Source: an uncultured Anaerotruncus sp. | GTDB lineage: Bacteria; Bacillota_A; Clostridia; Oscillospirales; CAG-272 | Direction of reading: 5' to 3' | Length of the DNA: 12,305 bases | Assembly: GCA_958414155.1 (NCBI GenBank) | Contig: CATYWI010000006.1 | Span: 1 to 12,305, forward strand | In this document: positions 1-12,305 of the stretch, piece after piece | Numbering within the stretch: position 1 is the first letter of the stretch | Layout: the number at the start of each line of letters is the position of its first letter | Made by a program: the position numbers and the translations under genes | The notes under the pieces: generated by a model | What the model saw: the letters and a program-made list of their open reading frames with translations, nothing else | Database searches by the model: none | What the model was told of the DNA's origin: nothing

Positions 1-3000
1 TCCACCTTCACAGAGACAACGGCGTACTGATTCTGCGTGGTGCGGCTGACGATCTCGAAGCCCGTTCCACGGAACTCGAAGCTCATCACATCTGCGGTCT
101 CCTTGACCACCAGCGCACTAAGCGAACCGTTAGAGCTGTCGCCGCCGCCGAGACCAAGCTGCTGGTTCAGATAGTTGATGACCTCCTGCTGATAGGCGTT
201 TAGGTCAGAGGTGTTCAACACCAGCGTATATTCAGTCACCTTATCCTTCTGATAGTTGGGATCGGAGCCGTAGGGGCTGTTTTGATCTGCGCTCTGCTTG
301 TTACCCTCAGAATCATCGGTCTTATAGTGAGCCCAGCCGTTCTTATCCGTATTGATGTAGGTGATACCGGGGAAATCATCCTCGTAGTACACCACATTGG
401 CGGGAACGACCTTGACAGTCTCCTCCATCACAACGCCGGTTTTGGTGGTAACAGCGGAAGCGCCGTCCTCCAGCACCTGCACCCGGATTTTTACGGAATC
501 CTCGCCGTTCATGAAGCTGTTCATGGTGTACTTCAAGGACGTGGGATTTTCATCCGCGCCATAGGCAAACGTGCCGTAATTCTCGATCGCACTTCCATTG
601 GTGATACCAAGTGTGCTGGCAGTGGTGGGATGCTTATTCTCAGCAAGGCTGAGCGTATCGTTGACCATCAGGCCAAAGTCTGCACCATTCAGCTCCACAG
701 GCAGGCTGTAATCCAGAACATAGATGTTGTCTGCGACATCATAGCTGTAAATGGTAACGGCCACGGGGCCATAGTTGCCCACCTTATAGTAATAGGTATC
801 GGAGCCGGTCTTGGTGCCGGTGTAAGTGATGCCGTTAGCAGTGACTTCAGCGTTCTCGTTGACAGCAGTGCTGTCGGTCTTGCCGTTGGGGCCGCAGAGC
901 CGGATATCCGTGCCGGGATTGGTGACGCCCGCCTTGGTAACGGCCTCAATCAGTTCAGCTTTGGTGGCAGTCACGCCCTTGCCCATCCACTCGTAATAAT
1001 GGATTCCCATATATGCAAACTGCTGCTTCTGCACTGTGCAGGTTGCGATACCGTTCAGCGTCTTATGAGAAGCATTATCGCCTTTGGAAATGGCTGAAGT
1101 ATAAACCGTGTTGGTGAACTTATCGTTAGACCAGCTTCCGGAGGGCACCGTGTAATTAAGACCGGAGATAGAAATCGACTCGCCAATCTCCAAGCCGCCT
1201 TTCAGCAGAGCCTTTAAGACATCCTCGGTAAGTTCACCGACGGCGCAGGAAAACTTCGTCGCACCATCTGCACCGATAACGCTGGCATAAAGGTCGGTGA
1301 TCGCGGTCGCAGGGTTCAGGCTGATTGCATCTTTGCTGAGGGAAACGCCGATGGCGTTATCTTTGAATTCCAGTTCTTCAATTTTGGCATCGCCGTTGTT
1401 TGTGAGTTTGAATTGATAGTTGACGGGTTGATTCGCGTCCACAAAGCCGTAGTTGCCCACGTTTACGCCGTTCTGATAGGCAACCTTTTCGGTCAGCATG
1501 GAGGGGTCAACAATCTTGATGTTGGTCTCGATGCCGAAGTTGGCAGCCGTACCGTGACGCTCCACGTAATAGAAGTCGAAGTCGTAGACCTGACCGTCCT
1601 TCAGACCGCAGAGAGATTTGACATCATTGAGCTTGATGCCGCACTTGGAGATGGCGTGACCGCCGCCCATGTCCAGTACGCGGACGCCGTTGATGTACAG
1701 ATACACGTCATCATCACCCGTGAAGTTGAAATACAGATTATCATCCTCATAGAAGATAAACTGTGCGTGTCCCTCCAGGGTCATATTGTAGTTGGTGTTG
1801 TTATAATAGTGCGTAATATCGCCCTGGTTCGGTGCAACAACTTCAAGATATTTGTTACCGTTATTTCCGAAGTACTTTTCATTGATTGGATCAAATCGAT
1901 TCTCCGCCTGCAGGTTACCACGGACATAGGTCGTGCCTTCTCTGGTAGTGACATGATCCGTCTGGCTATTGTAGATCACGCCGTTCGCAGTGTCATAAAC
2001 GCTGCCGTCGTAGGCGGAGTTATAAACATAATAATTACCCTTCTTGACAAGGTTGATCTGGTGATACTCCGTCACAGTCTGACCATACCCAGGGTTATCG
2101 CTGTACAGATTTTGCAGCAGGAAGTAGGCGGCATCATAATAGGTGCGGCAATCCTTTGCCTCGGCAAGCGCCTTGCTTTTGGTATCCGCCATGCTGCCCA
2201 GCCCGCCATTGATACACCGACGGAACACCTCTGCCAGATCACGGGTCGCGCTGCCGGTGTTGCCGACATAGTCGTTATTGTTGTCAAACAGCTTGGTTCC
2301 CATGACATACCACATGTTATAGGAGCCATCGTTGTTCTGCCACTTTTCCGGCAGCGTCTTTTGCATGTACTGCGCAATATACCCAACCGTTGCCTCCGTA
2401 TAAACCGGCTTTCCGTCAGCACCGAGCATAGGCTCAACAAGGTTTGTGCGAACGTAGCACCCATAAAGCGTCTGCACCGCGCCGCTGTTCAGGGGGGACT
2501 GTGAGGGAACCAGAGTTTCCGGTGTATCGCCCCAATTTCCGTTCAGCGTCACCTGTGTTCCGGCAATATCCATTCCCTGAAAATGGGAGGCAGAAGAGGT
2601 GTCCAGCAAGGAATACCCCTTAGTGTTACCGTGGTGATAGGTACCGGAACCGCTTAAAGTCTCAACGGTAATGCTATTACTGCTGTAAGAAATCTTATAA
2701 TTGCTCTTGTTTGCATCAGTAATATAACTGATAGCATTATAGGCATAGCTATTATCAGCGCTGTCCCCGACCCATGCCCAAACGGAAAAAGCAGCATTAT
2801 TTGCAGCGGTCATGTCTTTGACTTCGCCACTTTTATATACCTTCGTAATGTATCCGTTGTTATCACAATAGAGACAATGCCAGAACTTCGGGCTGCTGGA
2901 CGGAACCATTCCCGCTGTATAGACGCGAAGCCCGGTATAGTTTCTGAACCAACTGTCACTGACATTCAATCCATAAATGCTGTATGTAGACGATGTTGTA

Positions 3001-3197
3001 ATCGTTCCTGTCTGCCCCAGGTCATTCCACTCAAACAGCATACCGTCCGCCGCGTAGTCGCGGATGGTAATGGGCAGGGAAACATATTCATCTCCCGGCC
3101 CCTTTGTGTTTTCCGCATACGCAGTGACGCCTAATGCCGGCAACATGGATACGACCATGACCGCCATCAAAAGCGCCGCCAAAATTCTTTTTTTCAT
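1..3197 (-). CDS. Giant secreted surface protein with fibro-slime (PA14-like) domain, 3' end outside window
   Basis: The frame is open from ATG 3197 to the window edge (1065 full codons), with no stop seen where I translated it at both ends and in the middle. The N-terminus is a classic signal peptide: MKKR, a hydrophobic core, then a probable cut after AYA at about residue 29. Residues about 475-560 match the fibro-slime domain: GDDDVYLYINGVR at 494-506, LDMGGGH at 508-514, then a VERHGTAANFGIETN-like end. Residues about 585-690 resemble a DUF11-like repeat, and the last visible part has GTGFEIVSRT, typical of jelly-roll binding domains in such proteins. No anchor (LPXTG, S-layer repeat) is visible because the C-terminus is missing. 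A GGAGG lies 10 nt before the ATG, and the ATG overlaps the stop of the upstream PqqD-like gene, so the two are probably translationally coupled. Role inferred: cell-surface adhesion or carbohydrate binding; the ligand is unknown. Confidence 0.88.
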   Translation of the reverse strand, partial: MKKRILAALLMAVMVVSMLPALGVTAYAENTKGPGDEYVSLPITIRDYAADGMLFEWNDLGQTGTITTSSTYSIYGLNVSDSWFRNYTGLRVYTAGMVPSSSPKFWHCLYCDNNGYITKVYKSGEVKDMTAANNAAFSVWAWVGDSADNSYAYNAISYITDANKSNYKISYSSNSITVETLSGSGTYHHGNTKGYSLLDTSSASHFQGMDIAGTQVTLNGNWGDTPETLVPSQSPLNSGAVQTLYGCYVRTNLVEPMLGADGKPVYTEATVGYIAQYMQKTLPEKWQNNDGSYNMWYVMGTKLFDNNNDYVGNTGSATRDLAEVFRRCINGGLGSMADTKSKALAEAKDCRTYYDAAYFLLQNLYSDNPGYGQTVTEYHQINLVKKGNYYVYNSAYDGSVYDTANGVIYNSQTDHVTTREGTTYVRGNLQAENRFDPINEKYFGNNGNKYLEVVAPNQGDITHYYNNTNYNMTLEGHAQFIFYEDDNLYFNFTGDDDVYLYINGVRVLDMGGGHAISKCGIKLNDVKSLCGLKDGQVYDFDFYYVERHGTAANFGIETNIKIVDPSMLTEKVAYQNGVNVGNYGFVDANQPVNYQFKLTNNGDAKIEELEFKDNAIGVSLSKDAISLNPATAITDLYASVIGADGATKFSCAVGELTEDVLKALLKGGLEIGESISISGLNYTVPSGSWSNDKFTNTVYTSAISKGDNASHKTLNGIATCTVQKQQFAYMGIHYYEWMGKGVTATKAELIEAVTKAGVTNPGTDIRLCGPNGKTDSTAVNENAEVTANGITYTGTKTGSDTYYYKVGNYGPVAVTIYSYDVADNIYVLDYSLPVELNGADFGLMVNDTLSLAENKHPTTASTLGITNGSAIENYGTFAYGADENPTSLKYTMNSFMNGEDSVKIRVQVLEDGASAVTTKTGVVMEETVKVVPANVVYYEDDFPGITYINTDKNGWAHYKTDDSEGNKQSADQNSPYGSDPNYQKDKVTEYTLVLNTSDLNAYQQEVINYLNQQLGLGGGDSSNGSLSALVVKETADVMSFEFRGTGFEIVSRTTQNQYAVVSVKV

Positions 3198-3622
3198 TGT
3201 GTATTTTCCTCCACTGTGGCAAGATATTGATGAGCGTCCAGCTCTGAAAGAAAGTCCTCGATATCCTTGACAGCTTCCTCTCTGCTCACATCGTATTCAG
3301 CAAGCAATGCTGTCAGCAGGTCTCCAAAAGTCTGCCCCTTTTCGAGTCTGTCCCACAGGAACATCCCAACCGGGCTGAGAATCGCCATCTGATTTTCGTT
3401 AATTGTGTCTCGGCTGATGGGAATGACTAAGCCTTCGCCGCAAAGTTCGCGGACACAATATCCCTCTTTGATGCGATACCGCTCACGCACTTTTTTCATC
3501 GCATCACTTTGCATATAGGCAGCCAATTCCTGATCGCTCAGATTCTCAGCTCCGTTGATTTCACCGTACGAAGGCATGAGAACATGTGTTTCCGATGCAA
3601 CATATGATTTTTTCTTACCCAA
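3194..3622 (-). CDS. PqqD/RRE-like small protein coupled to the surface protein
   Basis: This encodes 142 residues if it starts at TTG 3622, which has a purine-rich site (GGAAGGTGGAGAG) about 8 nt upstream. The frame also extends to an ATG at 3775, but that start would sit on the predicted -10 box and add an unlikely Phe/Leu-rich leader. Residues about 50-135 show the PqqD winged-helix pattern: IKEGYCVREL, an LVIPIS strand, then SPVGMFLWDRLEKG and the helix pair TFGDLLTALLAEYDV and AVKDIEDFLSEL. In PqqD and RiPP recognition elements this fold binds a leader peptide and presents it to a modifying enzyme; no radical SAM enzyme is visible here. The first 45 residues are a family-specific extension I do not recognise. 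The TGA stop overlaps the ATG of the surface-protein gene by 4 nt (ATGA), so the two probably act together. Confidence 0.75.
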   Translation of the reverse strand: MGKKKSYVASETHVLMPSYGEINGAENLSDQELAAYMQSDAMKKVRERYRIKEGYCVRELCGEGLVIPISRDTINENQMAILSPVGMFLWDRLEKGQTFGDLLTALLAEYDVSREEAVKDIEDFLSELDAHQYLATVEENTQ

Positions 3623-3765
3623 CCAATCTCTCCACCTTCCTTTAAAATAAAAACGCAAACATAAATTCAATAAGAATCGTACAAGCTGTAAAAAAATAAG
3701 TTCAATTTTTTTCTTTTCGCAAAGTTCCGACCAAGCTATGACCTGCGAGTTCGTATACAGCATAC

Positions 3766-3794
3766 ATTTTACCATGGCGGAGGCTTTTTTGCAA
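3766..3794 (-). promoter_or_regulatory. Candidate extended -10 promoter of the PqqD-like/surface-protein operon
   Basis: On the minus strand TTGCAA (3794-3789) is followed after exactly 17 nt by TAAAAT (3771-3766), preceded by TGG, which makes an extended -10. Transcription would start near 3758 and leave a leader of about 135 nt before the TTG start at 3622. This is by-eye consensus matching; no start site is known. Confidence 0.45.
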
Positions 3795-4506: not shown

Positions 4507-4611
4507 TCAGTAGTAAGCTTGAAATAGTTCCTTTTCACTGTCAAGCCAACCGTTACCTCGGCTTTCAGTGGATTCTTCACAAAAATATGTCGCAGTTGTT
4601 TTTTTACACAT
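4507..4611 (-). pseudogene. 34-codon fragment of an unidentified gene beside the recombinase stop
   Basis: From ATG 4611, overlapping the last recombinase codons in another frame, an open frame reads MCKKTTATYFCEESTESRGN, then GWLDSEKELFQAYY, and stops at 4509-4507. No ribosome site precedes it. The composition looks like a real protein C-terminus rather than random sequence, so it may be the tail of a gene cut by integration of the element. I do not recognise the family. Confidence 0.25.
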
Positions 4612-6259
4612 AGATTATTGTGAATAAATTGTATAGTAAAAAAACAAATCCGAACCAATTTCGATTAATGAAATAGTTCGGATTTGTTTCGTTTGGTGAA
4701 CCATTACATAAACTATCCGAACTATCGGCGGGGGGTGGGGATTCGGATGTTTCGGAAGTGTCGGCTGTTTCGGCGGTTTGGATAGCGTCCGAGTATGTGA
4801 CTTCGGTGCCTGTGACGCCCGAGACATTATAATAGATGATTATTTTATCATCCCAGACGTAAACGGCGTTGACAAGTGTATTTATCAATTTACGGCGGTA
4901 CTCCGGATCATCGATGTTGCCCACGGCGAAGCTGCGGAGAAACAGCTCCACGTCGGCGGCGGTCAGCTGCATCTCGCGGCGGAGTTTTAGCTCCGATATT
5001 TCGGTGTCAACATCGTCAAGTCTTTTTTCGAGGGCATCCACCTTGGCATTTATGCGGTCGATCAGGCGCTGTGACGCCGCCTTGATGATCGCATCGGCGG
5101 CATCGTCAATCTCTTTATTTATTGCCCTGCGCTCGCGCTCAAGCTCTTTGAGGCGGCTCGCGCCGAGGTCATCGGCGGAGGCGGCTTCGACACGCTTTGC
5201 GATGTGGGCGATATTATTTTTGTCAAGGATATAGATCGCCGTTTGCTCGCAGACGAATTTTTCAAGCCAGTCTTTGCGCTCGCTTTTCTTTTTGCAGGTG
5301 CGGCGCTTCTTTTTGTTTATGCACGAGTAATAGTAATATGTGCCGCCTTTGCCGTTGCCGCTGTCGCCGATCATTGCCGCACCGCAATGTCCGCAAAACA
5401 GCTTACCGGTCAGGGCGAAATACGTACCTTCGGTCTTTTTGCCGTACTGACGTTTATTCTTTTTTAAGAGATCCTGCACCTTGTCATAGAGTTCCTCGGT
5501 GACGATAGCGGGGCTTTCACGCTTTACGCCGCAATAGTCGTTTTCGCCCTTAAAGGTCGGGTTCGACAGTATACCCGAAACGAATGATACGGAAATATCA
5601 TTTCCCTTCCGGGTACGGTAGCCGCGGGCGGTAAGCTCGCGGGCGATCACGCTCTTTGTTTTGCCGTCTGCGTACATCTCAAATGCAAGTCTGACGGCGG
5701 GGGCTTTTTCCTCATCGACCGTAAGGCGGTGGTCGATGACCTTATAGGCATACGGCGGATTGCCGCCGGTGGAGAGTCCCGCCATGGCTTTTTGCTTCAT
5801 GCCCTCGGTGACGATGCGGGAGAGCTTGCGGGAGTAGCTTTCCGCCATCGCCTCGTATATGCTCTCAAGGATAATGCCCTCGTCGCCGGTGCCGACGCTC
5901 TCCTCGGTGGAGAGGACGCGCACGCCTGAGCGCTCAAGCCGCTTTTTATAGATCGCGGAGTCATAGCGGTTACGGGCGAAACGGTCGAAGCGGTAGACGA
6001 TGACAAAAGCAAACTGCCGCTTTTTTGCATCGGCAATCATACGCTGAAACTCCGGGCGGTTGTCATTGGTGCCGGTCATAGCGCGGTCGATGTACTCGCC
6101 GACCACGCGAAAGCCCTTTTGCTCGCAATACGCCTTATCCGCACGGAGCTGAAAATCTATGCTGTTTTCGGTTTGCCGCTCGGACGAAAAGCGAGCATAT
6201 ATCACGGCGTTCAGCCGGTTTTCCTCCGGGACGGTGACGGTTCTTGACGCAAGGCTCAT
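4604..6259 (-). CDS. Large serine recombinase (integrase of the element)
   Basis: This 551-residue protein catalyses site-specific DNA integration/excision through a 5'-phosphoserine link. The resolvase domain (about 17-150) has YARFSSERQ with probable catalytic Ser25 and Arg23, plus YRFDRFARN with Arg93 and Arg96. A recombinase domain follows (about 165-270), then a zinc ribbon starting FCGHCG at about 290 with a later C-x6-C pair. A long charged coiled coil (about 370-440) serves synapsis control in this family. The start at ATG 6259 has AAAGGA 8 nt upstream and lies 24 nt after the exonuclease stop, so it is the last gene of the lysogeny operon. The last 40 residues are odd: Ser/Thr/Pro-rich, then aromatic, and they span an intrinsic terminator (4638-4689). 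Confidence 0.93.
   Translation of the reverse strand: MSLASRTVTVPEENRLNAVIYARFSSERQTENSIDFQLRADKAYCEQKGFRVVGEYIDRAMTGTNDNRPEFQRMIADAKKRQFAFVIVYRFDRFARNRYDSAIYKKRLERSGVRVLSTEESVGTGDEGIILESIYEAMAESYSRKLSRIVTEGMKQKAMAGLSTGGNPPYAYKVIDHRLTVDEEKAPAVRLAFEMYADGKTKSVIARELTARGYRTRKGNDISVSFVSGILSNPTFKGENDYCGVKRESPAIVTEELYDKVQDLLKKNKRQYGKKTEGTYFALTGKLFCGHCGAAMIGDSGNGKGGTYYYYSCINKKKRRTCKKKSERKDWLEKFVCEQTAIYILDKNNIAHIAKRVEAASADDLGASRLKELERERRAINKEIDDAADAIIKAASQRLIDRINAKVDALEKRLDDVDTEISELKLRREMQLTAADVELFLRSFAVGNIDDPEYRRKLINTLVNAVYVWDDKIIIYYNVSGVTGTEVTYSDAIQTAETADTSETSESPPPADSSDSLCNGSPNETNPNYFINRNWFGFVFLLYNLFTIIYV
4638..4689 (-). terminator. Intrinsic terminator embedded in the 3' end of the recombinase frame
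   Basis: On the minus strand the arm 4689-4676 pairs perfectly with 4655-4642 (14 bp). A second 5-bp stem (4674-4670 with 4662-4658) sits inside, and a run of seven T (4644-4638) follows. It has every mark of a Rho-independent terminator, yet the recombinase stop codon lies about 32 nt further downstream. Confidence 0.75.
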
Positions 6260-6283: not shown

Positions 6284-7264
6284 TCAGATATTTATCATGT
6301 CGCGGAAAACGCTCTCGGGAATTATGTCAATGTCATACCCCTTGAGTTTATATGCTTCCGCCTTTTTTTGTTTACTGCTTTTGCCGCCTTTTATCGCTTT
6401 GCAATAATCGTTATTACCAAGGATCAGCAGATTCGTTTCTTGGGTAACGCCCGAACCGCATTTTCCGCCAAAGTCAACAACGATTTGCGCTGCTTCAGCG
6501 CGCGTCATGCCCTCAAGTGTTCCGGTAAAAGCACAAACTTTCCCAAAAAGCGGGTGGGTTTCATCAAATTCGGTTTTATCTGATTTCAAGTCTTCGAGGT
6601 GGTCGCCGGCATATTTATAAACGAAAGCGCTTACCAAGCCATCCTCGCTGCCGTATTTAGTCAACGCCATAACGCGCATGGCATTGTAGCAATCGAAAAG
6701 GGTAAGGCAATCCGCAAGTGCTCGGTGCTCATCGCCGGCAGTTACGCCAAGCGGCGCAAGAAGATCGCCGAGGCGGTGATGGCGCTGCTCCGGAAGAAGC
6801 TTACGGGCGATGCGGAGCGTATCTATAAACGAGTTGGAAAAATGGTTACTGCCGTAGTTTTCGGCTGCATCATATAAAAAGTTAACGTCAAAGTGGGCAT
6901 TGTGGGCAATTACAAGGTCATCGCCGATAAAGTCCATGATGCCGGGCAATGCCCCGCCGACAGACGGCGCGTCTGCCACCATGTCATTTGTAATACCCGT
7001 AAGCTCGGTAATAAAATCGGGGATAGGGTTCTCGGGCTTTACGAACGTCTGATATCGGTCGGTTATTTCGTTGCCCCTCACACGCAGCGCGGCAAACTCG
7101 ATGATATCGTCATATCGCGGGTCAAGCCCGGTCGTCTCAAGGTCAAGCATTATGTAATTTTCGGGCAGTGCTATGATGCTGTTGCCCTTATATTCGCGGG
7201 TGCGCTTTGGCTCCTCCGGAGCAATCATCACTTTCCCGGTGGATAAATTAATACTGATAGCCAT
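6284..7264 (-). CDS. DEDDh 3'-5' exonuclease with C-terminal BRCT domain (Pol III epsilon-like)
   Basis: The 326-residue protein has the three exonuclease motifs: DLETTG (D41, E43), HNAHFDVNFL (D126) and EHRALADC (H180, D185), which bind two metal ions for 3'-5' hydrolysis. Residues about 240-322 form a BRCT domain (FGKVCAFTGTLEG at its start, GVTQETNLLILG, then the KKAEAYKLKGYDIDII end). The start is placed at ATG 7264 because GGGAGGAA lies about 9 nt upstream; an ATG at 7270 would be too close to that site. It sits between ImmA and the recombinase in one operon. Known relatives are proofreading subunits and stand-alone repair exonucleases; its job in this element is not known, and DNA processing during integration or replication is an inference. 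Confidence 0.88.
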   Translation of the reverse strand: MAISINLSTGKVMIAPEEPKRTREYKGNSIIALPENYIMLDLETTGLDPRYDDIIEFAALRVRGNEITDRYQTFVKPENPIPDFITELTGITNDMVADAPSVGGALPGIMDFIGDDLVIAHNAHFDVNFLYDAAENYGSNHFSNSFIDTLRIARKLLPEQRHHRLGDLLAPLGVTAGDEHRALADCLTLFDCYNAMRVMALTKYGSEDGLVSAFVYKYAGDHLEDLKSDKTEFDETHPLFGKVCAFTGTLEGMTRAEAAQIVVDFGGKCGSGVTQETNLLILGNNDYCKAIKGGKSSKQKKAEAYKLKGYDIDIIPESVFRDMINI

Positions 7265-7291
7265 AATCATTTCCTCCCGTTTATACCGGGC

Positions 7292-7870
7292 TTATGCCCG
7301 GATTGATTTTACAAAGCCCTCGAAATTTTCATATACCTCTCTTTCGAGGGGATTGGTCAAGAATTTGCCGCGGCGGTAAAGCACGTCCATACGCTCGGCG
7401 CGTATCTTGGCAACGGTGTGCGACACGCGGCAGACGCGCGCTATATCGTCGGCGGTGCGGATATCCAGTCCCCACAGCACGCACGCCGGACACAGCAGGC
7501 GAGCGGCGAACATATCCGCCTCGCGTTCGATCGCCGGACGCACATCAAAGGTGCGCGTGCGTGTGTGGTATCCCTTTTTCAGGTCATGTCCCAAAAAGAT
7601 ATGACCTATCTCATGTGCTACGGTAAAACGGCTGCGCTCGATGGTGTTTTCGTCATCGTATATCACATACCAGTTTTCGCCGTCATAATACGATATACCG
7701 CTTTCGGACGGCTGGAGCTCTCCGACAGCGCTGTTTTTTATGACTTTTATCCCCGCGGCGCGCGAAATGGCGCTGACGCTGACGGGCAAACGATCGACAT
7801 GATAGTCACGCAGGCAAAGCCATGCGGCATCACGGACGTTTCGGTATATACCATATATCAATATTATCAC
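7292..7870 (-). CDS. ImmA/IrrE-type zinc metallopeptidase
   Basis: The protein (192 residues from GTG 7870, or 189 from TTG 7861) has the HExxH zinc site in VAHEIGHIFLGH (H86, E87, H90) and the third ligand in EREADMFAARLL (E117). ImmA proteases cleave the partner phage or ICE repressor and so induce the element; the repressor gene lies just upstream, as expected for an ImmR/ImmA pair. The start is uncertain: no ATG fits, and the only perfect GGAGGT is 17 nt before GTG 7870 and lies inside a 10-bp hairpin, which suggests restrained translation. The C-terminus is Arg-rich and may be partner-specific. It is the second gene of the lysogeny operon. Confidence 0.88.
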   Translation of the reverse strand: MIILIYGIYRNVRDAAWLCLRDYHVDRLPVSVSAISRAAGIKVIKNSAVGELQPSESGISYYDGENWYVIYDDENTIERSRFTVAHEIGHIFLGHDLKKGYHTRTRTFDVRPAIEREADMFAARLLCPACVLWGLDIRTADDIARVCRVSHTVAKIRAERMDVLYRRGKFLTNPLEREVYENFEGFVKSIRA

Positions 7871-7906: not shown

Positions 7907-8350
7907 TTACAACTGATCGTCATCTGTTTCCGGCGCATTTTTGATTTTTTGGAAGCGCTCGCGGCTTATCTCTACGATCTCATCGGGGTGATCGTTGGTG
8001 CTTTTTGCCGCGCGGTACAAGCGCACGGTATCCGGATCGTCCGATATACCCAAAAGTCTATCAACAGCCGGCTGCATATCGGGCTTTTTGCGATAGGCAA
8101 TAATCAGGGCTTTTTCGTGAGCCGAGAGGGTGTGATCCACGTCCGCGGATACATCATGCTCTTGCAGCTCATTAATGGATATCCCCAAGCCTTGACATAT
8201 TTTTATAACGTTATCAATGGCGGCACCGCCAAGTGAGCCATTGAGGATAGTCAGCAAAGTGCTGTATGGCATGCCGATATACTGAGCAAAGCTTTTTATA
8301 TTATAGCCTTTGCTTGATATCATATTTTTTATAAACTGTTCCCTGTTCAT
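7907..8350 (-). CDS. XRE-family repressor (CI/ImmR-like)
   Basis: This 147-residue protein has an N-terminal helix-turn-helix (about 5-62): SFAQYIGMPYSTLLTILNG is the helix-turn-recognition helix, followed by IDNVIKICQGLGISINEL. The middle (LSAHEKALIIAYRKKPDMQP) is typical of clostridial phage XRE repressors, and the tail is acidic and charged. The start at ATG 8350 has GGAGG 8 nt upstream. It is the first gene of the leftward lysogeny operon and faces the Cro-like gene across a promoter/operator region, so it very likely represses the rightward promoter and regulates itself. The ImmA protease downstream is the probable inactivator. Confidence 0.88.
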   Translation of the reverse strand: MNREQFIKNMISSKGYNIKSFAQYIGMPYSTLLTILNGSLGGAAIDNVIKICQGLGISINELQEHDVSADVDHTLSAHEKALIIAYRKKPDMQPAVDRLLGISDDPDTVRLYRAAKSTNDHPDEIVEISRERFQKIKNAPETDDDQL

Positions 8351-8501: not shown

Positions 8502-8522
8502 TTTTATTGAGAGGTGAGAACA

Positions 8523-8726
8523 TTGTATCCCGAACTTGAATTAACAATATTTATGAGTAAAAAATCGAAGAAAGAAATCGCCTCGGAGCTGGGAATGACA
8601 TACAACACCCTGTTACTTAAGCTCAGAGGTAAAAACGATTTCACACTCGACGAAGCCGTCAAACTTAAAGAGATTTTGAATACTCCCAAAAGTATTGAAG
8701 AGCTTTTCACATTTTCAGCAGCATGA
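8523..8726 (+). CDS. Small Cro-like HTH protein
   Basis: This protein of 67 residues is read from TTG 8523, which has AGAGGTG 6-8 nt upstream; a GTG at 8514 is in frame but overlaps that site and has none of its own. KSKKEIASELGMTYNTLLLK is a helix-turn-helix, followed by LRGKNDFTLDEAVKLKEIL, the usual shape of short Firmicutes phage Cro-like proteins beginning MYPELE. It is the first gene of the rightward operon, divergent from the repressor, and probably competes for the same operators. Confidence 0.8.
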   Translation: MYPELELTIFMSKKSKKEIASELGMTYNTLLLKLRGKNDFTLDEAVKLKEILNTPKSIEELFTFSAA

Positions 8727-9003: not shown

Positions 9004-9252
9004 CCATTTGTACAGGTCGCGGTAATGGCGCGGCGGGACCCGGACGGCACGCCCGGTCCGGCGATACCGCTATACATGGAGATGAGCGCGGAAGAGGCGG
9101 CACAAAATGAAAAATTTTACGACGATGCCGCGCGGCTGCTGGCAGAACGATACGCCGCCTTTCGCGCTCGCCGTATGGCGGAGATCGAAGAAGAAAAACG
9201 GCGTGAAGCCGAAAAAGCCGAAAGGCGAATATCAAGGGAGAAAACAAAATGA
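9001..9252 (+). CDS. Charged coiled-coil protein, early operon, unknown function
   Basis: This 83-residue protein starts at ATG 9001 after the duplicated leader (GGGAAGGGAG about 10 nt upstream). The N-terminal third has a short beta-like region (PFVQVAVMAR, then GTPGPAIPLYMEM), and residues about 28-80 are a long charged helix (EEAAQNEKFYDDAARLLAER, RRMAEIEEEKRREAEKAERR), a likely coiled coil. No known family is recognised. Its TGA overlaps the ATG of the Lar-like gene, so the two are translationally coupled. Confidence 0.65.
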   Translation: MPFVQVAVMARRDPDGTPGPAIPLYMEMSAEEAAQNEKFYDDAARLLAERYAAFRARRMAEIEEEKRREAEKAERRISREKTK

Positions 9253-9467
9253 TAAACAATGATGTACCGATCGGGCTTTGCCCGAGGTGCGGCGGCGCGG
9301 GAACGCCGGTGCGCAGGGTGCTTGGCGAGTTTGACTATTTTTACACCGTCGAGTGCGAGCGGTGCGGGGCGCGTACTTATAGCTTTTCAAGCGCATGCGA
9401 GGCTCTGCGGGAATGGAATGCCGGGAATTTGCGTCCCGGTTTCGGGCGAAAGGAGGATATGGCATGA
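9249..9467 (+). CDS. Lar-like restriction-alleviation zinc ribbon
   Basis: This 72-residue protein has LCPRCGG (C11, C14) and VECERCGART (C36, C39), followed by ACEALREWN. That is the order and spacing of Lar-family proteins (CPFCGG ... V.C..CGA ... EAI.AWN). Lar of the Rac prophage modifies type I restriction so that foreign DNA is spared; most clostridial members are assigned by domain only. It overlaps the genes before and after by ATGA junctions, which implies coordinated translation. Function is inferred from the family, and these short zinc ribbons may have other uses. Confidence 0.7.
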   Translation: MINNDVPIGLCPRCGGAGTPVRRVLGEFDYFYTVECERCGARTYSFSSACEALREWNAGNLRPGFGRKEDMA

Positions 9468-9772
9468 TAAGCGTCAACGATGTTACAGGCAAGCGGCACG
9501 GCGGACGCATCGGGAGCCGTGCGGAGCGTCTTAAGGGCTGTCAATACCCCGACATAATATGCGACAGCGACTGCTCAAACTGGGCGATATGCCGCGCGCT
9601 GCGCGCCGAACGCTCGGCGCTCGTGTCAAAATATCGCCTTGTACGTCAGCAATATGCGGAGCTTGCATCGCGCTTTGATGCTCGTACACCATGCGATTTT
9701 TGCCGCTACGACAGCATGCCGCCGGATGAGCGTCCGTGCCGGGACTGTCCCGCCGAAGCGAGAGGCGGCTGA
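9464..9772 (+). CDS. Cys-rich double zinc-knuckle protein, unknown function
   Basis: This 102-residue protein starts at ATG 9464, with AGGAGG 8 nt upstream and a 4-nt overlap with the Lar-like stop. Two Cys clusters, C26/C33/C37/C43 and C77/C80/C92/C95 (CDFC ... CRDC), flank a helical segment (about 44-70). Each cluster has four cysteines, as expected for two zinc sites. I do not recognise the family. It sits among Lar-like and other Cys-rich early genes, so a nucleic-acid or protein-binding role in the host take-over block is reasonable but unproven. Confidence 0.65.
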   Translation: MISVNDVTGKRHGGRIGSRAERLKGCQYPDIICDSDCSNWAICRALRAERSALVSKYRLVRQQYAELASRFDARTPCDFCRYDSMPPDERPCRDCPAEARGG

Positions 9773-9775
9773 CAT

Positions 9776-10012
9776 ATGCCGGATAAAAAAACAAGGGTAT
9801 TACCGCGCGCATACCTCTCACGGCTTTGCCCTTGCCGCGAATGCACCGAGAGGGCGGTCGGATGCCGATCCGGCTGTGCGCGATGGGCGGAGTGGTCCGC
9901 AGCCTGGGAAGCGAGTAACAATGCGATATTCCGCGGCCGCGAAGCCGGGCGCGATCCCGCCATGATAACCACGATACGATTTACAACCAAAAAGATACTA
10001 AAAAAGCATTGA
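9776..10012 (+). CDS. Small Cys-rich phage-type protein
   Basis: This 78-residue protein starts at ATG 9776, 3 nt after the previous stop, with GAGAGGCGG upstream. It has CPCREC (C18, C20, C23), then C30 and C34 in VGCRSGCARWAEW. Short proteins with C.C..Ct.R.VGCh..C..Y are common in Firmicutes phages and usually annotated as hypothetical. The C-terminal half is basic (TTKKILKKH). Metal binding is likely; the function is unknown. Confidence 0.6.
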   Translation: MPDKKTRVLPRAYLSRLCPCRECTERAVGCRSGCARWAEWSAAWEASNNAIFRGREAGRDPAMITTIRFTTKKILKKH

Positions 10013-10017
10013 TAAAA

Positions 10018-10040
10018 CGGGAAGGATGACTACACAAATG
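10018..10040 (+). repeat. Translation-initiation leader, copy 2
   Basis: It differs from 8981-9003 at only three of 23 positions. The alignment places the start of the downstream gene at ATG 10038 rather than at the in-frame ATG 10026, which lies within the leader. Confidence 0.6.
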
Positions 10041-10421
10041 GAAAATGAAATGATCGCAAAGGCTGTTGACAAAATCGACAGCGAGGCGGCAAAAGCCGCC
10101 GAGAAAAACAAGGCTCTTGCCCCGGCATACGATGCCATTGCATCGATGCTGCGCGACGCAGTGCGCGGGAACGCACGTGCGTGCGAATGTTGCCTTGACA
10201 CCGCAAAGACAGTCGAGGGAGCATACGGCGCAATGAGGAGCGCGGCTGAAAAGAAAAAAAGCGGAAATTGCGTTGTGATAGCACCGGATGAAGCCTTCGG
10301 TATCATCGCCAAATACTACGGCTTTGATGCCGCAGAAGCTGCCGAGAGCGCGAAAAACACAGAATCGCAAGCGATTGCGAATCCCGGCGGCGACGTTGAA
10401 TCGCTGTTTGACCTTTTGTAA
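10038..10421 (+). CDS. PcfK-like / AcrIIA9-family protein (candidate Cas9 inhibitor)
   Basis: This 127-residue protein has an N-terminal helix (AKAVDKIDSEAAKAAEKNK), then LAPAYDAIASMLRDAV. The family signature follows: KTVEGAYGAMRSAAEKKKSG at 57-76, NCVVIAPDEAFGIIAKYYGF at 77-96, and an acidic tail ending SLFDLL. This matches the pattern I recall for PcfK-like proteins, including the AcrIIA9 anti-CRISPR family (KTi..sl..m...AkKkk.Gn.avl...egf.iv.kYfgi). AcrIIA9 blocks Cas9; PcfK itself is of unknown function in conjugative plasmids. The start at ATG 10038 is chosen from the duplicated leader. A PcfJ-like gene follows at once, as in other PcfK-PcfJ pairs. Whether this member inhibits Cas9 is not shown by the sequence. 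Confidence 0.7.
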   Translation: MENEMIAKAVDKIDSEAAKAAEKNKALAPAYDAIASMLRDAVRGNARACECCLDTAKTVEGAYGAMRSAAEKKKSGNCVVIAPDEAFGIIAKYYGFDAAEAAESAKNTESQAIANPGGDVESLFDLL

Positions 10422-10433
10422 TGGAGGCACGCC

Positions 10434-12305
10434 ATGATACCGATAAAAAAACTTGCGGGCACACCGCGCATACCTGCACCGGACGACGCCGAGGTATCGC
10501 GGCTGCTTGAGCAGTCATGCCGGTCGCGCATTTTTGCCGTCGGCGGCGAGCACACAGTAGGCAATAAAACATACGGCGAAATTACATATTACCATCTAAA
10601 TATCACGCTAAATATCACGCGTCAGAAAAAGACCGAAAGCAGAACGCTTGAACCCGTATTGCGGGTATTCCTCGCTCTTGACGGGGGTCACGCGACTGTG
10701 CGCGACGGCGAGGATCACGCGCGGAGCGGTGAGATCGGCAACATCATAGCGCGCAAATTTTATACAGGCGGGCAGATACTGCACACCGAATCAGCTTTTG
10801 CGGCGGGAATGAAATATCTCGGGTGCGGCGAGACCGATAATCCGACTGTATATATTGACATGCAGATCGAGCGCAAAAGAAATGCACACAATCAGGCGCT
10901 TGCACGCACAGAGATGTCTTTGATGCTTGAGGCTTTTGCAAAACTGCCGGAATACAGACTTACCGCATCGGACGAGACGTTTATACGCCGGAATGTGATA
11001 TCGGAGCGGTTTCTGTTTCGTTTCTCGAAGAAGGTTCTTGCCGACCCGATAACCGGTTTAAGGCAGCTCGAGGATTTTGTCTTTTGTGCGACCTGCGGCG
11101 CGATCGAGTGGACCGATCCCCGTGCCGGAGAATACAGGCACGGAGCGCGTGCTGTTTGCCCTGCGTGCAGTACGACCGCAACAGTGTACGACATCGGCAG
11201 ATCAAAAAACACGCTGTGGCGGCAGGGCGTTGTCGAAATTGCCGCCGCGATCGATGATCACACGCTCATGCTTTGCGATTTTATCGTGGCGGTGGATTAC
11301 AGTACGATATCACGCGACAATATGACTTTACCGCCGCTGGTAGCAACCCGCAGAACGCGGCGGCTGATAGATATAAGCTCCGGGATAATACGGCGGTATG
11401 AGCCGACAGCGCAATGCAAGGCAGGTTATTATCGGGTAGTACACTCTCCCAAGACGTCCGGGGCGGTAGATGAATGTACACGTGCGCCGGCTTACTCAAG
11501 TGGTCCTAAGCCGTGGAGAGGCATAAACGGTATATGGCTTATGCACGACGGCGGCGGGCTTGGGTTGGGAGATTTGCGGTATGCGGATCTTCGGGCGGTA
11601 TTATCGGGCGAAAAAGGCGCCGCGAACACCGTCAATATAGGATTCAGAAATCTTGCAGAAATCATATTGAATTATATTAACGCCCCGCGGGTCTATGAGA
11701 TGATGGCAAAATGCGGAGGTGCAAGGTATCTAAGCATGACACCGCGCGAATTATACGGGATCGGCATCAACACGGGCGGAAAAACGCCGCGCGAGGTTTT
11801 CGGGGTCGAAGCCAAGGTAGCACGGACGCTGCTTGATATCAATAATCCGCGATGGTATACAAAAATGCGCGAGGCGGTGCAGTCCGGCGTACCCGCCGAA
11901 TGTTTGTCTATGCTTGGGGTATGGTTTGAGCACTGCGATGACGGATACAAAAAAATAAAGCACATTGCGCTGCTCCCTGCCAAAGCAAAAGAATACGGGT
12001 ATGACATGGATAGCTACCGTGACTACATCGGACAGGCTATAAAGCTGGGGTACAATCTCGGCGACAAATACTACGAGTTCCCGCGCGACCTCGAAAAAGC
12101 GCACATGGACGCAACAGCCGCGATCGTGCTTAAAAACGACCGCGAGCTGCAAGTCAAGGTTGAAAAACGCCTCCCCGCCCTTGCGCCCTACGAATACAGC
12201 AACGGCAGGTTTGTTATCCGCCCGGCGCAAAGCATCGCGGAGCTTGCCCTCGAAGCCGACGCGCAGCGCAATTGCGTATATAAAAATTACAGCCGCCTTT
12301 ATGCC
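10434..12305 (+). CDS. PcfJ-like protein, 3' end outside window
   Basis: The frame is open for 624 codons from ATG 10434 to the window edge, with GGAGG 7 nt upstream and 12 nt after the PcfK-like stop. A four-cysteine zinc site is visible: FVFCATCG (C218, C221) and VCPACST (C242, C245). Near the end, FVIRPAQSIAELALEADAQR and NCVYKNYSRLYA (about residues 590-624) form the start of the PcfJ domain (l..EA..q.NCV..Y). PcfJ is named from the enterococcal plasmid pCF10; its biochemical role is unknown. In phages and ICEs of Firmicutes it recurs beside PcfK, as here. A 12-bp perfect tandem repeat (10596-10619) encodes LNIT twice. Confidence 0.8.
   Translation, partial: MIPIKKLAGTPRIPAPDDAEVSRLLEQSCRSRIFAVGGEHTVGNKTYGEITYYHLNITLNITRQKKTESRTLEPVLRVFLALDGGHATVRDGEDHARSGEIGNIIARKFYTGGQILHTESAFAAGMKYLGCGETDNPTVYIDMQIERKRNAHNQALARTEMSLMLEAFAKLPEYRLTASDETFIRRNVISERFLFRFSKKVLADPITGLRQLEDFVFCATCGAIEWTDPRAGEYRHGARAVCPACSTTATVYDIGRSKNTLWRQGVVEIAAAIDDHTLMLCDFIVAVDYSTISRDNMTLPPLVATRRTRRLIDISSGIIRRYEPTAQCKAGYYRVVHSPKTSGAVDECTRAPAYSSGPKPWRGINGIWLMHDGGGLGLGDLRYADLRAVLSGEKGAANTVNIGFRNLAEIILNYINAPRVYEMMAKCGGARYLSMTPRELYGIGINTGGKTPREVFGVEAKVARTLLDINNPRWYTKMREAVQSGVPAECLSMLGVWFEHCDDGYKKIKHIALLPAKAKEYGYDMDSYRDYIGQAIKLGYNLGDKYYEFPRDLEKAHMDATAAIVLKNDRELQVKVEKRLPALAPYEYSNGRFVIRPAQSIAELALEADAQRNCVYKNYSRLYA

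Follow-up and report, generated by a model that had tools for sequence, protein, structure and literature searches.

AcrIIA9 is an inhibitor of SpyCas9 of 141 amino acids that two reviews list as originating from a human gut metagenomic library; its mechanism field is empty in one of them and holds a dash in the other (PMC10328345, PMC6538845). It was reported to carry the Pfam PcfK domain and to have 351 homologs in RefSeq, with ArdA near such homologs (PMC6739104), and anti-restriction genes were described near AcrIIA9 (PMC7648647). Also of relevance is the motif by which bacterial proteins bind the sliding clamp, with the sequence QL[S/D]LF or, in its broader form, QxxLF. It forms the last five residues of PolC (PMC12309361) and is carried near the C-terminus by insertion sequence (IS) transposases (PMC4549789). 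PMC6739104 and PMC10782964 are among the papers naming PcfK or PcfJ; on the function of either protein, or on a link between PcfK and the clamp, no open-licence paper was found by title or abstract, subscription papers lying outside the scope of the search. Here we analysed a stretch of 12,305 bp (the window) of contig CATYWI010000006.1 from an uncultured Anaerotruncus sp., in which the original prediction had seen a candidate anti-CRISPR of the AcrIIA9/PcfK-like type. This gene and the one following it are a divergent, previously unannotated PcfK-PcfJ pair in a phage-type operon. At a probability of about 55%, we favour the explanation that the window protein is a divergent member of the PcfK superfamily, produced jointly with PcfJ from an operon of prophage type, and that the pair works according to a clamp-adaptor model. 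The reasons are the PcfK homology, the PcfJ neighbour, the conservation of the gene pair, the replication genes found near several relatives, and the canonical DnaN (sliding clamp)-type peptide carried C-terminally by most of the PF14058 proteins seen.

The open reading frame (ORF) and its core KTVEG...AEKKKSGNCVVI...EAFGIIAKYYGF were both present as originally described (Table 1). Since the single sequence of the window protein retrieved six homologs (E ≤ 7e-20) and a seven-row profile retrieved 49 including these six (48 at E ≤ 1e-7), the ORF is real and not a chance frame. The start at 10038 coincides, within one alignment column, with that of all six first-round homologs and has a GGAAGG stretch upstream; an alternative in-frame ATG at 10026 would add four residues. 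In the AlphaFold model, the helical core block had a predicted local distance difference test (pLDDT) score of 77-88, with residues 71-80 lower at 61.

When the protein itself was searched against PF14058 at the Pfam cut-off, as the original prediction had proposed, no match was obtained; the PcfK-like assignment stood through profile homology of the core and through the PcfJ neighbour. PF14058 was matched by 4 of 48 aligned homolog rows (best E 1.5e-4); L005 and L009, which are more remote relatives, passed the cut-off of 27 bits with 36 and 42 bits. Profile-profile comparison (hhalign) of the window clade with PF14058-type proteins including L005 and L009 gave 99.0% and E 3.1e-18, and the seven closest sequences compared with 14 rows without these two bridging relatives still gave 96.6% and E 5.2e-10 over 87 columns. 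The window protein was also detected, with an E-value of 2.7e-5 (1000 sequences), by a profile built from 27 tail-trimmed PF14058 proteins. The fragments P0029 and P0030 were excluded from alignment A2, and P0025 from A3. We accept the window protein as a remote PcfK superfamily member that lies under Pfam's own threshold. It shares with the PF14058 family a homologous core of about 90 residues, the position directly before pcfJ, a variable linker and a short conserved C-terminal motif, whereas it scores below Pfam detection and its clamp-type motif lacks the Q. Across 398 genomes sampled from one phylum, PF14058 was over the cut-off in three. The PcfK-like genes of L010-L012 encode 220-223 amino acids, with an extra N-terminal part containing cysteine pairs (zinc-ribbon-like) before the core that is absent from the window protein.

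The most informative neighbour of the PcfK-like gene, absent from the original prediction, is the PcfJ-like gene that follows it. Its product matched PF14284 above the cut-off and aligned with 34 PcfJ proteins at E 6.7e-20 (hhalign); about 170 residues precede the aligned part. In each of the 12 loci that the window clade yielded, a PcfJ-type gene stands directly after the PcfK-like gene (called by Pfam in L001, L002, L005 and L009, by alignment in L006, L008, L010 and L012, and by reading in L003, L004, L007 and L011). Eight loci were taken from 33 matches in annotated records: five (L013-L017), with RefSeq-style names, have a 'Cas9 inhibitor AcrIIA9 family protein' followed by a 'PcfJ domain-containing protein', and in three (L018-L020) both products were annotated as hypothetical and PcfJ was recognised from its sequence. 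The proteins of L019 (MW057932.1, Campylobacter phage CJLB-5) closely resemble PcfK and PcfJ of Streptococcus phage SM1, so its host label may be wrong.

Starting from PcfJ on viral contigs (73 loci, 40 in set A5 and 33 in set A6), an ORF was present directly upstream in 71, L051 and L054 having none and that of L046 looking spurious. The PcfK profile was matched by 60 of the 71 (27/38 in A5, 33/33 in A6) and not by the remaining 11. The distance between the two genes in these 60 loci was -4 to 15 nt in 59 and -104 nt in one; 31 pairs stood at -4 nt, the kind of overlap that coupled genes typically show. Phages as well as plasmids carry PcfK and PcfJ side by side. The C-terminal domain of PcfJ has a weakly GNAT-like predicted fold. 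In L067 PcfJ this fold spans residues 341-447, where Q416 is invariant and R418 and N422 are near-invariant; these residues would lie close to the acyl-CoA-binding site of GNAT proteins.

A clamp-type tail is widespread in the family. The PF14058 proteins of the eight loci from annotated records (L013-L020) carry, at or near the C-terminus, QMSIF, QISLF, QLTLF, QMNLF, QLSLL, QLDLF, QLDLF and QMSIF, respectively. The pattern Q..[LI][LF] was present in the last 15 residues of 117/120 proteins from the PF14058 search (the best 120 of 252), a set that favours the motif because its query, alignment A4, held tails and only the best were used; the exceptions were P0126, P0127 and P0142, the last having QMSLY. 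The PcfJ-based sets and a DNA-pattern scan for the core are free of this bias; the motif was found in 32/33 upstream genes of set A6 and in 18/26 loci of the scan, and also in 11/16 other proteins, eight of them the discovery set. Among 1070 control ORFs from the fetched loci, which were chosen mechanically and may include some that are no genes, it occurred in 19, and the stricter canonical form in 4. The 38, 33 and 26 loci yielded 34, 32 and 23 distinct proteins, and the sets overlap and hold duplicates; taken together, the 283 proteins have 222 distinct tails, 125 of them with the motif. Clustering at 50% identity gave 47 clusters, 14 of them mostly motif-positive, and 13 of the 47 representatives were positive compared to a mean of 0.33 and a maximum of 3 in 2000 shuffles. 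The Q of the motif was among the 12 invariant columns of alignment A10 (14 rows). The tail patterns were written after the first tails had been seen, and sets P0050-P0169, L027-L099 and L100-L125 were gathered later. In its extreme C-terminal position and consensus, the motif of most PF14058 proteins seen is like that of PolC and the IS transposases. The tails of many PcfK relatives thus suggest docking onto the DNA replication clamp, and canonical PF14058 proteins likely bind DnaN.

Phage proteins that block the clamp exist, and PcfK might be a host-takeover factor: during replication of the element it would occupy the host clamp and slow the replication of the host or the exchange of polymerases, and PcfJ would act as modifier or antagonist. 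Small proteins of mobile elements that bear canonical clamp-binding tails are in keeping with such a role, and the early position in some phage operons would suit a competitor. However, PcfK also occurs on plasmids coexisting with their host, and the key Q is absent from the window clade; we regard this role as improbable.

The tail of the window protein, VESLFDLL, matches positions 3-5 of QL[SD]LF. Several observations weigh against the clamp-adaptor explanation or against its extension to the whole family. VESLF does not fit Qxx[LI][LF], and the first motif position in the 29 window-clade tails was T in 13, V in 12, I in 2, A in 2 and Q in none. Furthermore, the clamp motif was found in 0/38 upstream genes of A5 (0/27 profile-confirmed) and in 0/49 of the proteins P0001-P0049. 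Compared to PolC and the IS transposases, the window tail lacks the Q. In E. coli, positions 1, 4 and 5 of the motif matter most, yet the change from QADMF to AADMF, which weakened clamp binding about fivefold, was tolerated, and DnaE3 polymerases often retain xxxLF only (PMC12309361). The Q-less tail of the window protein would therefore bind the clamp weakly, or it may have moved to another partner.

In this alternative, SLFDLL of the window clade and LSLDDLLDF of the A5-type relatives would bind a different partner, most simply PcfJ, and the motif would have become a clamp motif in other branches only. The form xx[SD][LI]FDL[LI] was kept in 29/29 window-clade members in spite of the missing Q, F124, D125 and L126 being invariant in 28 aligned rows, and the motif-less tails of the A5 genes and of P0001-P0049 end in another acidic-hydrophobic motif such as LSLDDLLDF or KIIDILDFM. 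The window clade takes an intermediate position between these and the clamp type. An acidic-hydrophobic pattern, written after these tails had been viewed, fits 41/56 other tails (P0031-P0049 and A5). However, L002-L004 have QIDLF or QISLF, and in L112 and L122 the last two or three residues are preceded by GQLSLFDLL, which is the window tail with Q present. In a tree of 54 cores, with the last 14 residues removed, the window protein fell in a supported 10-row set with L002 (QIDLF), and five changes of the Q label were needed; P0029 and U_L046 were excluded from this tree and P0126 was swapped for another member of its cluster. We therefore hold a different partner to be rather unlikely. As a separate observation, the upstream genes of PcfJ set A5 (L027-L066) show a second conserved tail type, e.g. 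LSLDDLLDF or FDISLDDLL, in place of the clamp motif.

From the mixed tail evidence and PMC12309361, we consider clamp binding likely in the canonical PF14058 proteins and uncertain in the window protein. In the clamp-adaptor model, PcfK would act as a small adaptor of helical structure: its flexible tail would dock onto the clamp of the host, and the docked PcfK would bring PcfJ to the replicating DNA of the element. VESLFDLL would then be a related Q-less form, with weak clamp binding or with another partner.

The original prediction saw in the window protein a candidate anti-CRISPR of AcrIIA9/PcfK-like type that forms a small counter-defence block together with the Lar-like gene. On this reading the protein would bind and inhibit Cas9, as AcrIIA9 is reported to inhibit it. 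The Pfam assignment of AcrIIA9 in PMC6739104 places it in the superfamily of the window protein. The PcfK domain of AcrIIA9 (PMC6739104), its listed activity on SpyCas9 (PMC10328345, PMC6538845) and the anti-restriction genes near its homologs (PMC6739104, PMC7648647), with a Lar-like gene ending 0.6 kb upstream here, would agree with this function. However, the window protein has no direct PF14058 match, and Cas9 inhibition explains neither the conserved partner PcfJ nor the clamp-type tail. No Cas9 match was found in any of eight genomes with window-type relatives, a weak negative and expected anyway because only 5/149 genomes of the phylum were over the cut-off. No solved structure of AcrIIA9 or of a relative turned up by sequence search or fold search. 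The RefSeq name 'Cas9 inhibitor AcrIIA9 family' stands on PF14058 proteins in five annotated records and on several proteins of the PF14058 search, and the anti-CRISPR title rests on this family name, which was traced to one metagenomic protein. Anti-CRISPR activity of the window protein is possible and unsupported, nothing found here speaking for it; Cas9 inhibition is not likely to be its main task, and the AcrIIA9-type function as a whole seems to us quite unlikely.

The phage-type context described originally was borne out by the repressor-like helix-turn-helix (HTH) gene, the M78 peptidase, the serine recombinase and the small + strand genes (Table 1). A minus-strand block holds the serine recombinase, a DnaQ-like exonuclease with a BRCT domain, the M78 peptidase and the HTH repressor, and is followed by the divergent + strand operon, whose small genes begin at 8514. 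The window resembles one end of a prophage-type element. The Lar-like neighbour passed the PF14354 cut-off but remained under the NCBIfam cut-off for TIGR03655 (33.7 against 39.6 bits).

Table 1. Features of the window discussed in the text
Feature	Position	Strand	Evidence
Large serine recombinase (integrase-type)	4604..6259	-	PF00239, PF07508, PF13408
M78 (ImmA/IrrE-type) peptidase	7292..7870	-	PF06114 3e-14
HTH repressor-like gene, divergent from + operon	7907..8350	-	PF13443/PF01381, phrog_8
Small Cro-like regulator, first gene of + operon	8514..8726	+	phrog_4583 8.6e-4
Lar-like zinc-ribbon gene	9249..9467	+	PF14354 30.0 bits (cut-off 28.6); phrog_599 8e-7
PcfK-like gene, 127 amino acids	10038..10421	+	ORF, homologs, profile-profile match to PF14058-type proteins
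Helical core, residues 1-99, PcfK-homologous part	10038..10334	+	AlphaFold model; hhalign over residues 3-97
Variable low-confidence linker, residues 100-119	10335..10394	+	Block pLDDT 60, then 39; variable among homologs
C-terminal motif VESLFDLL, residues 120-127	10395..10418	+	Clade-wide conservation
12-nt gap with GGAGG ribosome-binding site before pcfJ	10422..10433	+	
PcfJ-like gene, 624 amino acids within the window, cut by window end	10434..12305	+	PF14284 42 bits, cut-off 25

Further genes were observed around the pair. The DnaQ-like exonuclease-BRCT fusion (6284-7270, -) lies within the lysogeny-side block. Two small cysteine-containing genes without a named family (9464-9772 and 9776-10012, +) lie between the Lar-like gene and pcfK, and the second of them matched phrog_30258 at 2e-4. 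A PqqD-like gene (3194-3775, -; PF05402, 49 bits) adjoins one for a large fibro-slime-domain protein (3-3197, -), and these two genes are perhaps host DNA left of the recombinase.

With regard to the family as a whole, we tentatively suggest, at somewhat less than even odds, that the 'Cas9 inhibitor AcrIIA9 family' would generally consist of replication-clamp adaptors of phages and plasmids, which place a QL[SD]LF-type tail on the sliding clamp and deliver the enzyme PcfJ with its GNAT-like domain to the replicating DNA of the element. Cas9 inhibition would then be a special case or by-product, and the window clade a branch with a decaying or retargeted tail. That much of the family carries a clamp-type tail is an interesting and testable result. 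Hundreds of homologs have been counted as anti-CRISPRs by homology (PMC6739104). A clamp-binding tail would offer a direct and cheap biochemical test of the function of the family, and it cautions that many of its members, the window protein included, may bear the anti-CRISPR label wrongly.
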